Assembly: GCA_001574975.1 (NCBI GenBank)
Contig: KQ965750.1
Location: 124,001-188,000, forward strand
Direction: 5' to 3'
Source of the DNA: Gonapodya prolifera JEL478
Taxonomy: Eukaryota; Monoblepharomycota; Monoblepharidomycetes; Monoblepharidales; Gonapodyaceae
DNA length: 64,000 nucleotides
Shown here: piece after piece, positions 84 through 37,100 of the stretch
Position numbering within the stretch: position 1 is the stretch's first letter
How the letters are laid out: each line of letters begins with the position of its first letter
Notes under the pieces: model-generated
Told to the model about the DNA's origin: nothing
Databases searched by the model: none
Seen by the model: only the letters and a program-made list of their open reading frames with translations
Made by a program: the position numbers and the translations under genes

Positions 84-1440
84 TCACATGACCGAGCATC
101 CCGGATCGTCTGCTCTCGACGATGCGGACCCACCCTCTTTCGCCTCTTTTTCCTGGATATCAGCGAGTTCTTTTTTCATTTTCTTGATTTCTTCGTCGCC
201 CATCATGCCACCTCGGTTCATCACCGCGCACGTCTCGCGCAAGAGCATTTGCCAGGCACGTATCACACGTGCAGCTGGAACAGGAGGGCGTGAAGTGGAG
301 GCGGAGGGGTGAACGTCGGTGAGTCCGTAGGTTCTGTGACGCAAAAGTGGTCTGGCATGTGCATCGTGCGAGACAGCCTTTCCAAACCTACATGCCGACA
401 ACCATGCATTTGTAGTCCTTGAGTCCAATCCCCCACTCGTTCATATGTCGGTTTCCGAGCTCCAGCATTTCAGCCACGGTTGCTCGTCTGTCTCGTCCGG
501 CGAGAGAAGCCTCGGCACCTCGCACCATTCGATTCAATATTCGAATGATGGGGAAGTGGTTGGGGTCCGAGATGTGCTGATGATACGCTGGGTTTTGGGA
601 TAGCAGGCATTCCAGTGTAAGGGACTGTGCGAAATACAGTATGAAGTGTGGGTGTGAGTGCAAACTCCAAACATTCGCTCATGTACCCACTCCCATTCGT
701 TCCATCAACCCCGCGTCCCCAATTTCCCTCCAGCTTTTCACAACCGTTTCCATGTCTTCCTTTGACACGTCAACCCTAATATCCTTCCAACCCCCTTGCT
801 TTTTGTCATTGGCTACGGACGACCAGTCGAACGACGACGCGAGCGCCGGCGACCCTTTCGAATCTCCCTTGCCGTGACCGGATGCACCGAGACTCCCACT
901 TCCCCCAAGAAAAGGAAGGGAAAGAATTGTCCTCCTTTTGGTTGTTGCGTTCACAACCTGTAAACCTTCTTCCTCAGCCACGGACGGAGTAGACCCCCTT
1001 CGAACATGGCCATGCCCATGTGCGTCGGCTCGAGCCATGAAGTCATTTAGCGACGGGGTGCTTCCAACTTTTCCACGCATTGTGCCGGGGTGGAAAGGGG
1101 AATTTGATGAGTTGACCGAACTAGTACCTGCGGCATTAACTTGGTGATGTATTTGTGCTGGAGTCCCAAAAGCCTTCTCAGGAGCCTCTGGCGAGTCACA
1201 AGCGCCGGCGTCGTCGAATTTGAATGCGAAGGCGGGTAATGGTGCGAGCATCGATGGCGACGATGAATCCGTGATGGATGACGCGGTGTCTGCGGTGAGG
1301 GAGGAGGTGTCTGGAGTAGGTGATGCTCGAGATGAGTCAATAGGTAGGGGTGGCAGGTGATCGGGCTTCATCGTCGAAGGCGGCAGAGGCGAGGGTGAAG
1401 CCAGCGATGTGGATCTAACTGAGTCCGGAGGACTGGCCAT
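84..1440 (-). CDS. globin-domain protein with disordered N-terminus and CaaX box
   Basis: Three exons (1440-691, 624-392, 333-84) with GT-AG borders and matching phase give about 410 residues. The first 215 residues are Ser/Pro-rich and look disordered. A helical globin-like part follows: a first helix near residue 225 (WREIGD), an E-helix-like NHFPIIRIL with a candidate distal His near 273, an F-helix motif LGNRHMNEWGI whose His near 310 would be the proximal haem ligand, and a last helix AWQMLLRETC. The final four residues are CSVM, a CaaX box of the farnesylation class, so the protein may be anchored on a membrane. Globins bind haem and handle O2 or NO or sense redox state; which applies here is unknown. 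The donor of exon 1 is ambiguous (691 or 687). Domain assignment is by motif reading only and moderately sure. Confidence 0.6.
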
Positions 1441-1902
1441 GTGATTGAATGATTCCGCTTGGAGAGCTCAGATCTTCGCAGCTGGGAGACTTCAGGGACT
1501 CTTCGGACATCGGAAGATGGGAGGTTTGCGAAGTTGCACTTTACATACCGATAAATTATACAATGTACTTCAGGAGCCACTTCTGCATCAGCCATTCTGT
1601 GTCTGTACGCGGGTAACAGTTCCGATCGGTATAAAGGGGTGTTCACACTTCGAAGGGACTATTGTCAGAACACGGAATCCCGCGCATTATCCAGCCTGGC
1701 TCGTCCGAAAAGAAGATATTTTCCATCGAGCTGCATCGGCGACGCGATCGGACGGGTCTCTGGACCGAATCGGAGACTTTCCCTGCCACCACCACCCCTA
1801 ATTTCCGGAGTCTGAAGGACACCAGGCCAAATTACCCACACAAGTTTTAAACTTGGCCACATCGCAAAACAAAGCACGATCGGGACGTGGGGAGACTGAG
1901 AG
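1441..1902. promoter_or_regulatory. divergent intergenic region between two CaaX-protein genes
   Basis: The 462 bp between two divergent ATGs must hold the promoters and 5' leaders of both genes. I see no recognisable operator, RNA gene or conserved coding frame. The shared region makes co-regulation possible but does not prove it. Confidence 0.5.
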
Positions 1903-3873
1903 ATGTTGACGGCTGGCGGCCACAGCCTCGATTCGGGAGTTGGAACGGGAAACGGCCCGACCAGCCCACGCAGACGACGGCCCACGCTGCACGAGGCGTT
2001 CGAGGTAGCAGATGTGCTGTTCGGATCCAGGAAAATCGATGGGGCGGGACCTGCCTCTCCAGTTTCGAGTCCAGGCAGCCCAATCCATTCTCCTCCACGG
2101 CAAGCACCGCTCGCACAATCTCATCTTCTCATTCCGCGTAGTGCACCACCTCAGAATCGCCGCGGGTCTTCCACGACGGACACGCCTGTCATCAGTCCGA
2201 GTGCCACGATTATCCCCGCCAGCCCCTCGCGACCACATGCGGACGACGACTCACCACCGCCAACACCGCCGCGGTGGGTGAAAACTCGCCCGAGATCTTA
2301 CCTGGCGGGAAAAGCCCATGCCGGTGACAACTCCGGTGGTGGCGCCCGACCCGGTTCCATAGCGGGTTCGACAGCGTCTCCGGCGAGAGAATCCCCCCAC
2401 CTGGATCCGTGGTGGACCCCCCCTTCTCCTGGCGCCGTGCAGGCGAAGACGACGACGTCATCCGCCTCCACCCATTCCCGCCACTCGATGGCACATTCAG
2501 GGACATCAACGCAACGTCCGTCGCCCGCGCCGTCCCCTTCACATACCCTCGTTGAGACTCCCGCGAGGAGGCGAGAAAGTAGCCGTCACAGTGGCCGCGC
2601 TGCTGCACCCTCGCCCTCGGATCAAACGCCTTACCACTCCCCTTACCATGCCAACTCTCGGAGGTCTTCCCCTACGCACTCTAGGTCATCGTCCACAGGC
2701 TCAGCGCTTGGAGCACATTCGGAACTGGCACAGAATCACTCGAAGAGAGCTTCGGTTGTGGAATCGGCCATGACACCCCATTCGGTACCCCCACCTCACA
2801 AAACCAACGACTCGCGCTCCCAGAAGTCACAAATACATGCCAAAAATGAATGGCAGGGAGGGACAATATTGAGCGCTTCTAGGGACAATTCGATGGCTTC
2901 ATTCGACACAGATGACTACGAGGTGAGCATATATCCTGCCTGGTAGTGGTTGCCGAGATGTCTGATGGTGATCATTGCCTCCTGGTGGTTCTCATTTATT
3001 CTTTGTTGTTGTTAGATTGACGACTCCCCCGAATTCGCTGCCCCACCACCTTCCTCGGGTTTCTCGTCACTCAACCAAGATCCTCCACCCGCCCCGTCGA
3101 CCTCCCCCAGGTACTCGCCACCCCCACCCCTCTCTTCTCCAACGTCCACGCTCAACCACTTCTCTCCAATCACCCGCACCAACTCGTCCGGATCTCTCCC
3201 GTCAGTCTCACTCCCCAGCCTCAATACGCCCATAGACTGGATCGAAGCATTTGCCCGGAAAGCCGCGAGCGGTCCCAATGGAAGATTACCAGACCGACAA
3301 ACATCCGGCATCAGCATCACATACCCCACGTCCCGGCCGACTTCCACGTCACCCAGCGGAATGGCCCGAACAGGATCCCCGACCAATCCTGCGCTTCGCC
3401 AGCGCAGGGTGTCGTCACCTCACCTCTACAGGCTCCCAAGCGACCTAGTGATGGGGGGGAATGCAACGACGGGTGCAGGCGCAGCAAAGACCGATGCTGT
3501 CGCCCAAAGAGCACCCGATAGGGCCTCTTCACCCTTGAGCAGTGGCACCAAGAGTGGCTATCAGCCGCTCGCAGTGCGCCCACATCAGCAAGTGCCGCCT
3601 CCGACGTCCACCCTGGAGGTTCCTCACCCGCAAGGCAACGCCCTTAAACGCTGGTCGATGTTGGACGGGGTCACTGGTGTGTGGAAACCTGGAGATGGAG
3701 ATTCCGGGAGCCAACAAGGAGGTGGGGCTTCGAGCAAGACGAGGAAGGGGTTCGACGAACGGGGGCAGGCGCGGGGTGATGCCGGAGGCGGTGGGAAAGG
3801 TGGTGAGAAAGCCAGTGGGAGAAGGAGGGGGAGCTGGGATAAGGAGAAAGAAAAGGGCTGCAATGTGATGTGA
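1903..3873 (+). CDS. disordered Ser/Pro-rich protein ending in a CaaX box
   Basis: Two exons (1903-2922 and 3016-3873) flank a 93-nt GTGAGC...TTAG intron and encode about 625 residues. Composition is dominated by Ser, Pro, Thr, Arg and His with no recognisable folded domain, except perhaps a short segment near residue 415 (PIDWIEAFARKA) that could form a helix. The last residues are basic (DKEKEKG) followed by CNVM, a CaaX box with terminal Met and an upstream polybasic stretch, the usual arrangement of a farnesylated membrane-tethered protein. It is divergent from a globin gene whose product also ends in a CaaX box. I do not recognise the family; a scaffold or adaptor role at a membrane is only an inference. 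Confidence 0.75.
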
Positions 3874-4128
3874 GCGGCTCACGAACAAGAACGCTCAAGT
3901 CTTGCGTTGATCGCATTTTTTATCTTAATTTACTATGACTTTTGGATAGACACACTATTCAATATTCCAAAATATTAAATTATAATGCTCTTCTGCTTCT
4001 AGTCCATAAATGTGTAAAGGGCCGGGGGCAAAGGTCACTAGGCACACCAGGGTTGCAAGCAGGGACACCTTGAAACAAACTTTCGTGGTCGAGCTCCATA
4101 TCAACTCCTCATCCCAGAGGAGCACACG

Positions 4129-5496
4129 ATGGCACGATCGCAGCGCCACTGCATAAGCTGGGCATATTTGCACACCTTGGTCATCGTCGCCACTGCATTC
4201 GCTCATGTACAAGGCTTGGTACATGCGGCGCAGCTTGGCATCGGAGCTTCAATGCAGGGAACCAACGATTTTTACACAGCCGGTCCGCCGGACGGCGCGG
4301 AAAACTCTACCTCCGACGCATCCTGGCCATTGAACCTCCCCCTGCGCATCATCTCGCATAATATTCGGTACGCCCCCCAGCCGCCACCCCCCCCATCTCC
4401 GAAAGCTTCCACAACCGCTCGCACTTTCACGCCTACTCGGATCGCACAACCACTGGGGGAGGCTCCATGGGACGTCCGTTTACCCTTTCTCATAACTCAA
4501 TATCGGTATACGATGCGACACCACCCGGCGGCGTTCATATGCCTCCAGGAAGTGATGCATCACCAACTCATTGATTTGCTACGTGAGCTGAATGCTCCCT
4601 CGACGCTATGGCGGTCCGGAAATGTCTCGACGACACCTGTCAATGCATCCGCAACAAACACAACCACAGCGGCGAACGTCACAGATGAATGGTCCTATGT
4701 CGGTGTTGGTCGTGATGATGGCCTCACACGGGGAGAATACTCGCCCGTAATTTATCGACCACGAGACTTTGCACTCATCGCCAATCGAACACTGTGGCTT
4801 TCACAGACACCGTCAGTGCCCTCGAAAGGCTGGGACGCAAGCTCGCACAGGATCGTAACTCTGGCGCTGTTCAGACACAGAGTGTCAGGGAAGAAGCTCC
4901 TCGTGTCTTCAACGCACCTTGATGATGTCGGGAAAGTGGCGCGAGAAAAGGGTGCCAAGCTCATCGCGGACACCGTCAACGATATTTTAGCAAGGGGATT
5001 TACAAACGCCACGTTCATTCACACACGTGCGGCTACCCCATCCAACAAATCGACCCCAACCAACACCTCTGTCCCAACCAACACCTCTATCCCATCCAAC
5101 ACCTCTACCCCATCCAACACCTCTTACCCCACCAACGCCACATCTATGCTCACCCCTGATGTCCTCATCCTCGCAGGTGACCTCAACAGCCTGCCCTCCG
5201 ACAAAGCCTATCTCGTGCTATCACGTTCTCCATCTCCGTTTTCCGACACTCGCCTTCTCACGTCGGATCCTCGACAGCAGTACGGACATGTTGACGCTGG
5301 GACGTATACCGGGTTTCCACCCACAACGTGCTCCGACGGCTTCGAAACGAAGCTGATAGATTTTGTTTTTGCTGGACCCAGAGAGGGTCAGGGCGTCAAG
5401 TGGGCCGTCGAGGGGCATGCGGTTTTGGAAAGTCATTACGGCGGGGTCTGGAGCAGCGACCACCGGCCCGTTGTGGGAGATTTGCTAATTCTATAA
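4129..5496 (+). CDS. secreted endonuclease/exonuclease/phosphatase-family enzyme
   Basis: Single exon, 455 residues. The N-terminus has a hydrophobic stretch (residues 11-33) fitting a signal peptide. The EEP-fold active-site set is present in order: HNIRY (Asn78), LQEV (the metal-binding Glu), STHLDD, GDLN (351-353), KLIDFVFAG and SDHRP (Asp444/His445), so it should be a catalytically competent Mg2+-dependent phosphodiesterase or phosphatase. Substrate (nucleic acid, sphingolipid or inositol phosphate) cannot be told from motifs. Between the STHLDD and GDLN blocks lies an insertion with six tandem N-glycosylation sequons, and more sequons occur near residues 164-184. The product is probably an extracellular or vacuolar glycoprotein. 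Confidence 0.85.
   Translation: MARSQRHCISWAYLHTLVIVATAFAHVQGLVHAAQLGIGASMQGTNDFYTAGPPDGAENSTSDASWPLNLPLRIISHNIRYAPQPPPPPSPKASTTARTFTPTRIAQPLGEAPWDVRLPFLITQYRYTMRHHPAAFICLQEVMHHQLIDLLRELNAPSTLWRSGNVSTTPVNASATNTTTAANVTDEWSYVGVGRDDGLTRGEYSPVIYRPRDFALIANRTLWLSQTPSVPSKGWDASSHRIVTLALFRHRVSGKKLLVSSTHLDDVGKVAREKGAKLIADTVNDILARGFTNATFIHTRAATPSNKSTPTNTSVPTNTSIPSNTSTPSNTSYPTNATSMLTPDVLILAGDLNSLPSDKAYLVLSRSPSPFSDTRLLTSDPRQQYGHVDAGTYTGFPPTTCSDGFETKLIDFVFAGPREGQGVKWAVEGHAVLESHYGGVWSSDHRPVVGDLLIL
5035..5142 (+). repeat. six tandem 18-nt units encoding N-glycosylation sequons
   Basis: Six imperfect 18-nt units in frame inside the EEP gene encode the hexapeptide pattern x-P-(T/S)-N-(T/K/A)-(S/T): TPSNKS, TPTNTS, VPTNTS, IPSNTS, TPSNTS, YPTNAT. 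Each unit carries one N-x-S/T sequon. The array sits in the loop before the catalytic GDLN motif. Confidence 0.9.
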
Positions 5497-34158: not shown

Positions 34159-37100
34159 TTATCGGACAATAAAACCATCAGGGGGTACTTGATGTTTGAC
34201 CGCATTGAAAGCCGCCAGGGCTCGATCGAAATCCCATTGTGTCTCTACCAGACATTGGCAGGAGTAATTGTATGTGAGATTGGTTTGCGCAGAAAGCGTC
34301 AACACTTTTGCATGCTGCAAGTCGTCCTATAGTAGATAACGGTGAGTACGGCTCTGGTGCCCTTGGACAATAAAACACGTACCAGACCCAACGCCACTTT
34401 TCTCTGCTGCGCATCAAGAGGATCCATTCCTGGCGGTACTGGCACCTGTGCCACTGGCAAGACAGGTTCCGGGACAGGGACGACTACGGGAAGGGGCGCG
34501 ATGGGTTGCAAGGGTACCGGAGGAGCTGGCGCGGGAGCGACCACTTGTGCGCCTTGCTCTAAAGCGTCACGCCAGGCGAAATTTTGCGACCAAGGGCGTA
34601 CCGTGAGCTGATCGTTGAGAACTTCGAAGCGGTAGCCAGCTTGTTGTGCACTATCGATCGCCATCGTTTGAAAGATAAGGTGAACGGCACACGCAGTTGA
34701 GTGTCGGACTAATTCAAACTTACGGGGATCCTTCTCTCGCAGGTGCAATTATGAAAAGTCGATCATAACTTTTGCTCAAATTCATCTTGACTGAAACGAC
34801 ATTTTTTGATACGAGAAGGGTGAGGCGACTCGAAAACAGAGCTCACCCTCGATGAATTCGCCATGTACAGAGACAAAGAGTTTCACCGCACCGGTGGCCG
34901 GATCTTGTTGCATCCAAGAATCAACAACCTTTCGCGTACGGTCGGCAGTATGGCGTGTGTGTGGAAGCGCTTTTATCGCAGCGACAATCGCCTCCGGACC
35001 ACACGCAAGGGTATTGAGGCGTCGGGCTGTGAAGCACAAAAACAATGGTGAGGAAGTGAGAATCAATCGACAGTCCCGACCAGGTCTTACCGGGTTCACG
35101 CAGGGTAGTGAAATTTCTCGATACAGCTTGCCAACCCGACATGTCGTCTGCGAGTTGACCGGTTGACCGACTTCTGACGGTCGATGGTTTGCGGAAGGGG
35201 GGCACGTGAGTGTTGGAGGCCATTGAGAACACGGCGTTTTGGTGATAAAATACACCCAAGGCCGCTCGATTGCTGTCGAACAAAGGGAAGAATCTGGCAA
35301 TGTACGGATTACAGTGATGTGGATACAGTTTCGGAACAGCAGGTACGAACTTGGAGAGGAAGTCTTCCACCACTTCAGCTGTTCCCTCCGAGTCGACCCA
35401 GCCCTTCTTTATTGGTATTGGCCAAATAGAGTCCGGGCCTATAACTCCAACTGCTGCTGCAGACGCCCCGGACGAAGGACGACCTCCAAATGTAATCTCG
35501 CCATCGTCAGGACCTTCTTCAATCGATTCGTCATCCAGGATCATAAGCGTCGGGAACATTGCGAGAACATTTTCGCGGAACTTCTTGCTGGTGGTGGTTG
35601 TCTGGGATCCCGCCATCCCCATAGTATTCAGGTGGTTCACGTGCTTCGCGGCGTCTCGGTCGTACACTGGATTTCCTCGAAGGCGAAGTTCACGAAGAGG
35701 AGCGTTCTTGATGGCCTCTAGATCGCGAAGCGAATTTAGGTTGTTTTGTTCCAGGGAGAGATTGACCAGGGAAGGGGCTTTTTGGAATAAAGTGCGGAAA
35801 CTGTTGAGGGACGCCAGGCGGTTGGAATTGAGAGCGATGGATTGAATCTGAAGGTGGATGTATGGGGGATTGCACTGTGTGATTATTCGCACACCCATGT
35901 CAAAGCAGTCAGCAACACATACCCCAGGGAATTCTTCGCCAATCATCTTACAGAGCACCCCTCCAACTTTTTCGTTGTTGAGATCGTGGAGCTCGGCTTC
36001 TCGAATCGCCGGATTGTTCGCCATACCGGACAGGTCCAAAAGGTGGATCTGCTCTGCGTATTGGAACTTGAGGTACTCTCTCAGAACGGGAATGCGATCC
36101 ATCAGGGCCCCTGAGGACGTCCCCCCTTGCTGTTTCGGGCCGGCACCTCCCTGAGGCCCGTCTTTAGGCTCGGACGACTGCACGGGGTCGAATGAGAGTT
36201 TGAAGCTTTGGAAGCTGGATCCCGATAGGCGCTGCAATGCAGATGCTTCAGCCCAGTTCCCCACGGTCAGCACAACCGTCGTGCCGCCGTCTGTTGTTCG
36301 GACCTGCGAGATGTTGAGATTGCGCTGGCACCGGCGACGCACGAATTGTATGAGTTGTTGTCGTGTTGCGTTAGGTCGGGGACTCCAGCCGGTGATCTGC
36401 AACGTCGTTGAAATAAAATGATGATCAACAAAAGACGGGTGCAGATAGGTAGCGCTTTTAAACGGGCAAAAGAAAAGGCGAGCCCAAAAGGTGGATAGCT
36501 GTCCTGAAGTGCACTTCCACAATTCGCACCCAATCGACAAGTCCCTCGAGTAGGGATGAGTACGTTCCGTAAATCCAAGCAATCGGTTCCAGTCTCTCAA
36601 GCTTATTTCGGCAGAAATGATTCCACCACCCAAACCGCAAACAATCAGATCTTGTCTCTCAAACTCATCATGAAAGAAAGTGAGAAAAATTAATTTGCTC
36701 TTTCACTCACTCACCGCGACATCGACGTTTCCGGGTTTCCTCTGCCCTCCACCCTCCCCAATCATGGGTCCGAAACCGTTCGACTTTTGTCCACTCCCAG
36801 AGCCACTCCCGCTGCCCGCCGAGTTTGGAGCGTTGTCAACCACGCGTCGGCGACTTCCCCCATATGGATCACTACAGTTGTTTCGAGTTTATTTTGTGAA
36901 GTAGGTGAGGTTGGATTGATTCGAGGTGAGTCCATATTAGGAAGGTGGGGGTGGATTGATTCGAGGTGAGTGCATGAGAGTCCATCACGCAGAGCAGAAG
37001 CCGACAAGCAAGACAAAGCGACTTGTGAATTCCAATTCCAGCACGAGGAAGAAAGCCGTCGTGATGAGGGCAAACGAGAGTGTGGAGGGTGAGTGCTCCA

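Follow-up and report, generated by a model that had tools for sequence, protein, structure and literature searches.

A paralogous family of globin-like proteins with predicted C-terminal prenylation in Gonapodya prolifera JEL478

The locus at the start of the studied stretch raises the question of whether a protein with a globin-like domain is held at a membrane by a lipid attached to its C-terminus. The stretch, hereafter called the window, comprises 64,000 nucleotides of the Gonapodya prolifera JEL478 genome (contig KQ965750.1, positions 124,001 to 188,000). A first-pass annotation, made from the sequence of the window alone, had placed at positions 84..1440 a globin with a long disordered N-terminus and a C-terminal CSVM fitting a CaaX box of the farnesyl type, a His near residue 310 being expected to face haem. 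The predicted gene model is given in Table 1; the coordinates proved to be exact.

Table 1. Predicted features of the globin-like gene and its surroundings (positions in the window)
Feature	Position	Strand	Description
Gene	1440-84	-	three predicted exons, ATG at 1440, TGA at 86-84, 410 aa
Exon 1, residues 1-250	691..1440	-	disordered S/P/T/G-rich arm (~1-205), conserved lead-in, predicted helix A with Trp237
Intron 1 (predicted)	625..690	-	GT-AG, 66 nt, phase 0
Exon 2	392..624	-	predicted helices B to start of G; His310; CD1-position Ile268
Intron 2 (predicted)	334..391	-	GT-AG, 58 nt, phase 2
Exon 3	84..333	-	predicted helices G-H (RAWQMLLRETCAVM), hydrophilic linker, CaaX box, stop
Globin-like domain, approximate	207..768	-	residues ~225-370, introns included; profile matches to PDB globins and bacterial F globins
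CaaX box Cys407-Ser-Val-Met	87..98	-	translation of the splice model; same-type ending in 16/16 family last exons
Intergenic space, 462 bp	1441..1902	.	between two divergently transcribed genes, both ending CxVM
Neighbour gene (predicted exons 1903-2922, 3016-3873)	1903..3873	+	625 aa, 56% P/S/T/G/A, low-complexity, ends CNVM

Both introns were recovered by spliced alignment using the model's own protein; an acceptor of intron 2 at position 275 was rejected by eye, its phase being incompatible with the donor at 391. The P/S/T/G/A content was 57% in residues 1-205 vs. 30% in residues 206-385, in line with the annotated disordered N-terminus. The expected His was present as His310 (codon 447-445, within LELGNRHMNEWGIGLKDY) and aligned to the proximal haem His. 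The C-terminus reads ...SRADDPGCSVM, followed by TGA. The protein runs only about 40 residues past the globin-like domain and lacks a C-terminal FAD/NAD reductase domain; a flavohaemoglobin was rejected on the absence of that domain. Judged by eye, the introns seemingly fall at neither of the two positions, B12.2 and G7.0, that are ancient in animals and are named in the available part of PMC7771090.

The genome was searched for paralogues with residues 202-410 of the window protein (47.6 Mb, 207 contigs, E up to 10). The 31 match places all fell inside 15 loci, namely the window, two loci on each of the contigs C11, C3, C10, C32, and C44, and one on each of C66, C113, C98, and C17; the best paralogue place had an E value of 6.2e-18, and the copies diverged from the window protein down to 23% identity. 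Searches with members of the C98 and C32 types contributed just one addition, an isolated last exon on C32 (23410-23640; L015:3876-4144), which is about 90% identical to that of C32a and has its CKMM tail intact; no matches to exons 1 and 2 were found alongside it. Three contig pairs were similar beyond the genes themselves: C98/C17 (85 and 87% identity in two DNA blocks), C66/C113 (77 and 86% in two main blocks), and C32/C44 (larger blocks at about 76-81% and one block of 1.4 kb at 99.9%). These pairs may represent diverged haplotypes or recent duplication, perhaps with conversion, and the number of distinct loci is therefore given as 11 to 15.

Alignment A1 included 12 of the 15 domain copies; C44a, C44b, and C66 were omitted because they are near-duplicates of C32a, C32b, and C113. 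For the close pairs, dN/dS was 0.07 (C98/C17), 0.07 (C32a/C44a), 0.10 (C32b/C44b), and 0.13 (C66/C113), with the tails left out for C98/C17 and C66/C113 and with the last value carrying the uncertainty of the C66 and C113 models in their Ser-rich insert. Among four other pairs, two gave values of 0.24 and 0.39, and two were incomputable, the synonymous sites being saturated. Judging from these codon comparisons, purifying selection is acting in the four close pairs. Relatives were also sought elsewhere with two subgroup alignments, A2 (C10a, C10b, C32b, and C113) and A3 (four sequences, the subgroup of the window copy): A2 against genome contigs and A2 and A3 against viral contigs gave 35, 43, and 187 pattern matches, respectively, none of which was confirmed.

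The paralogues bear directly on the tail. A CaaX box closes all 16 last exons of the family, as CxxM in 14 and as CTIL in two; the endings are CSVM (2, the window copy and C11a), CKVM (4), CVVM (3), CKMM (4), CKLM (1), and CTIL (2), those of C11b and C17 having been read from last-exon frames. In the window protein, the Cys stands at position -4, the second a is aliphatic, X is a permitted residue, and the box occupies the very C-terminus. The tail Cys is invariant in all 12 aligned members. Loss of this Cys in orthologues had been named as grounds for refuting the annotated farnesylation signal; looked for among the same-genome paralogues, the Cys was kept in 16/16 last exons, and the reading of CSVM as a CaaX box was borne out through the family.

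For a background estimate, the strict pattern C[^PC][VILM][ML] before a stop, defined only after the tails had been seen, was scanned in 12 stretches of the same genome (the window and 11 loci). It preceded 25 of 5,960 stops: the 16 of the family, one of the divergently transcribed neighbour gene, and eight of other frames. A chance origin of the CaaX ending in one gene is almost certainly wrong: the pattern does occur before 9 of the 5,944 non-family stops in these stretches, but the ending recurs in 16/16 last exons of copies as distant as 23% identity, which refutes the idea within this genome.

That neighbour gene lies immediately upstream of the window copy (Table 1). No second copy of it was detected in the genome at E up to 0.01, and no comparable CaaX-ended neighbour was present in the stretches around the other family loci; apart from family members and this gene, frames of at least 100 aa ending in the strict box were absent from the scanned DNA. 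Among the family loci, the two genes are thus paired only at this one, perhaps by chance. Two further genes were observed in the window. A single-frame gene at 4128-5495 (+) resembles, by eye, exonuclease-endonuclease-phosphatase proteins and has a signal-like start, with nothing in Pfam at E 1e-5, and a frame at 34924-36702 (-) has matches of the RRM, LRR, and NTF2-like kinds to families of nuclear RNA export factors.

In the CaaX pathway, CxxM is the farnesyl-type box and CxxL the geranylgeranyl-type box, and proteins such as Ras, lamin B, and G-gamma carry one or the other after a flexible C-terminal linker. The family has the same box and a flexible linker, preceded in some copies by a basic stretch; the proteins named carry a GTPase, lamin, or G-gamma part, whereas a globin-like domain precedes the tail here. 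According to the paralogue alignment, the lead-in to helix A is conserved, and the linker ahead of the box varies in both length and sequence.

The genome encodes enzymes of CaaX processing. Prenyltrans-family genes were found at four places and ICMT genes at two. A one-frame fragment of the gene on contig C19 matched solved farnesyltransferase beta chains with a best E value of 3.4e-25; it scored higher with chains that we take to be mammalian than with a Ram1 chain, presumably the fungal one. Farnesyltransferase-beta-like sequence was observed at two loci, L021 on contig C75 (judged by eye) and L022 on C19.

A genuine globin family whose tail escapes prenylation in vivo, leaving the proteins without membrane attachment, is improbable. 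Such a reading draws on the composition of the boxes, in which the first a residue is Lys in 9/16 tails and the second is Met in 4/16, both being less typical than the N-Ras-like CVVM. Against it, the box is retained in 16/16 last exons even though the linker before it varies, its codons differ synonymously among the copies (TGC/TGT, AAA/AAG, and GTG/GTT/GTC), and processing enzymes are encoded in the genome.

The globin identity of the domain was less readily obtained. The window protein matched no Pfam family at E up to 10, so the profile check with Pfam Globin suggested in the first-pass annotation gave a negative answer, and the only phmmer match of its domain in the PDB was a ribosomal protein (E 0.4); taken singly, it would count as an orphan. 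Exon-by-exon searches of the genome with PF00042 (Globin) and PF11563 (Protoglobin) returned no candidates for either. Among the 12 aligned members, PF00042 matched two, below its curated cut-off (best E 0.03); two unrelated Pfam families matched one member each (E 0.11 and 0.18), and NCBIfam gave only three single-member matches (E 0.11 to 0.17).

The profile of the whole family gave a different picture. With A1, 45 distinct PDB sequences were matched at E≤10, of which 44 were globins (one named only 'Alpha chain'), chiefly animal haemoglobins and myoglobins; these are not independent because most are closely related haemoglobin alpha chains. The best match was haemoglobin zeta (E 9.4e-5, profile positions 24-160), two matches had E values below 0.001, and the one non-globin was 1t3g, an interleukin-1-receptor-like protein. 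Subgroup A2 produced 30 matches, including 28 globins (best E 0.0039). No PDB globin was matched by A3, which gave two non-globins (better E 0.0083), or by the single C98 sequence, which gave one (E 0.13).

The family was then compared by hhalign with bacterial globins. A scan with the globin domain of E. coli Hmp kept only close enterobacterial copies (80/465), and a wider draw was used instead, in which 61 of 90 loci (L105-L194) passed the length and stop filter, comprising 26 F, 20 S (protoglobin-type), and 15 T globins. The family reached 36% against F, 42% against S, and 0.17% against T globins, and the trimmed domain reached 45% against F and 46% against S; in absolute terms, 36-46% is a modest level. 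The controls reached no more than 0.15% for the reversed family alignment and 0.69% for the best of 20 column-shuffled decoys. Among themselves, the real globin classes matched at 9.6% (F-S), 18.8% (F-T), and 2.05% (S-T). A T-type globin was rejected on the value of 0.17%. The family His fell on the proximal His in both the F and S alignments, and the helix-H Ala-Trp was in register with the F globins; the identity to globins in the profile alignments was 12-15%.

The subgroups behaved unevenly when compared separately. The window subgroup (five sequences) gave 8.6% against F (decoy maximum 1.4%) and 10.5% against S (decoy maximum 0.6%); the C10-type sequences (five) gave 0.26% against F, below the decoy maximum of 1.04%, and 8.8% against S (decoys 0.87%); and the C98 pair gave 5.7% against F (decoys 2.06%) and 0.61% against S, below the decoys' 1.72%. 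The subgroups matched each other at 93% or more. A structure predicted for exon 2 alone settles nothing: its mean pLDDT was 64, and it showed two strands and two helices, 25-40 and 46-63, at the places expected for helices E and F. The globin reading thus rests on the family as a whole, the window subgroup on its own giving weak hhalign support above its decoys.

An all-helical domain of another kind, with a globin-like pattern arisen by chance, would explain why no member exceeds the Pfam cut-off, why identity to globins in the profile alignments is 12-15%, and why A3 alone finds no PDB globin. This is very improbable given that 44 of the 45 PDB matches of A1 are globins, that both the His and the helix-H Ala-Trp line up with their F-globin counterparts, and that the hhalign scores lie far above the 20 decoys and the reversed control. 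The annotated globin identity is accordingly upheld through the PDB and hhalign profiles of the paralogue family rather than from the window protein alone, and the profile case for it is strong but not beyond doubt.

The residues of the putative haem pocket were compared across the 12 aligned members. The helix-A Trp and the His at the proximal position are invariant (12/12). CD1, which is nearly always Phe in globins and was assigned here by visual inspection of the match between A1 and the PDB globins, is Phe in six members, Tyr in three (together 9/12), Leu in two (the C98/C17 pair), and Ile in one (the window copy). The presumed E7 residue, likewise placed by eye and not firmly placeable without a structure, is hydrophobic or aromatic in 12/12. 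The column three residues further on contains Gln or His in 8/12 and otherwise Gly (window copy), Glu (C10b), Ile (C98), or Val (C17). As far as the alignment can tell, the pockets of the window copy and of the C98/C17 pair are the least canonical, and for this reason haem binding is less sure for the window copy than for most of its sisters.

Haem-free globin-like domains exist in bacterial stress regulators, and the family could by analogy be a prenylated globin fold that does without haem and acts as a protein-interaction or signalling module, its His being kept for other reasons. The CD1 residues of the window copy (Ile) and of C98/C17 (Leu) and their near-distal Gly and Ile/Val, vs. Gln or His in 8/12, speak for such a module; an invariant His (12/12) and a CD1 Phe or Tyr in 9/12 speak against it. 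We regard it as unlikely for the family; haem loss confined to the window copy, or to C98/C17, would also be compatible with haem binding elsewhere in the family.

Taken together, the gene probably belongs to an expanded family, kept by selection, of globins with a diverged domain that are prenylated, attached to a membrane, and likely to bind haem; to this reading, drawn from sequence comparison, we assign a probability of roughly 0.75. According to the known CaaX pathway, Cys407 and its equivalents would be prenylated, with farnesyl on the CxxM copies (14/16) and geranylgeranyl on the CTIL copies (2/16), after which aaX would be removed and the Cys carboxymethylated. The globin domain would then be held on the cytosolic face of a membrane, and the disordered N-terminal arm would stay free to bind partners. 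With less certainty, most members may bind haem through the invariant His, and the role may be redox or gas (O2/NO) sensing or the protection of membrane lipids, and not oxygen transport; differences at CD1 and at the distal position would adjust the ligand and redox behaviour of each copy. The sensing or lipid-protecting role is proposed because of the analogy with N-acylated membrane globins. A more specific proposal, in which the 11 to 15 prenylated globins are membrane-tethered gas/redox sensors, the farnesyl and geranylgeranyl copies go to different membranes, and the arms relay the haem state, is possible but tentative.

Lipid-tethered globins are known from animals. In the available parts of PMC3176823, PMC3520999, PMC7457136, and PMC7771090, Globin X was shown to depend on its N-terminal acylation sites to reach the membrane, GLB-26 is presented as an N-myristoylated protein found at membranes, and many arthropod and annelid globins have predicted acylation sites. 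Globin X, GLB-26, and the other N-acylated animal globins resemble the present family in being lipid-tethered, or predicted to be so, and in these sources redox or ROS roles, not transport, have been proposed for them. Their anchor, as described there, is an N-myristoyl group with or without palmitoyl, whereas the window protein starts with Met-Ala (MASPP) and carries a predicted C-terminal prenyl; GbX-type anchoring was rejected for the window protein, which has no Gly2 for N-myristoylation. The term 'prenyl' is absent from the main texts of these four papers. In keeping with the first-pass remark that a few membrane-bound animal globins are acylated N-terminally, the known membrane globins carry their lipid at that end, and no prenylated globin was found in the open-licence literature among the matches listed, by titles and abstract starts, which does not imply absence from print.

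Among microbial eukaryotes, the cryptomonad Guillardia theta also has a multi-gene globin set, with a mostly hydrophobic E7 and one predicted lipid site, as described in the available part of PMC4101818; there, N-myristoylation is predicted for the only member lacking the F8 His, whereas the tail here is C-terminal and present on every copy. The 2012 census of fungal globins (PMC3287990) lists, in its available part, flavohaemoglobins, single-domain F globins, single-domain S (sensor) globins, and T1 globins, with S globins reported in Chytridiomycota and Blastocladiomycota and with N-terminal extensions of over 100 residues in some single-domain F globins of Mucoromycotina. The globin fold with a proximal His is common to those proteins, as far as that part describes them, and to the present family, which differs in having no reductase domain and in lying below the Pfam thresholds; neither 'CAAX' nor 'prenyl' occurs in the main text of the census. 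A routine census would miss the family because its scanned members fall below the Pfam globin cut-off.

From the lipid-anchored globins of animals, a membrane-bound ancestry of respiratory globins has been suggested (Blank and Burmester 2012, cited in PMC7457136), an idea not corroborated by the trees of PMC7771090, as far as the available parts of both texts go. The present data point to membrane-attached globins of a kind for which no description was found in the open-licence literature. Because CD1 and the distal residues vary among the copies, the question of the haem pocket lends itself to direct testing. If true, a large C-terminally prenylated family would represent a separate solution to the membrane attachment of globins, apart from N-terminal acylation.
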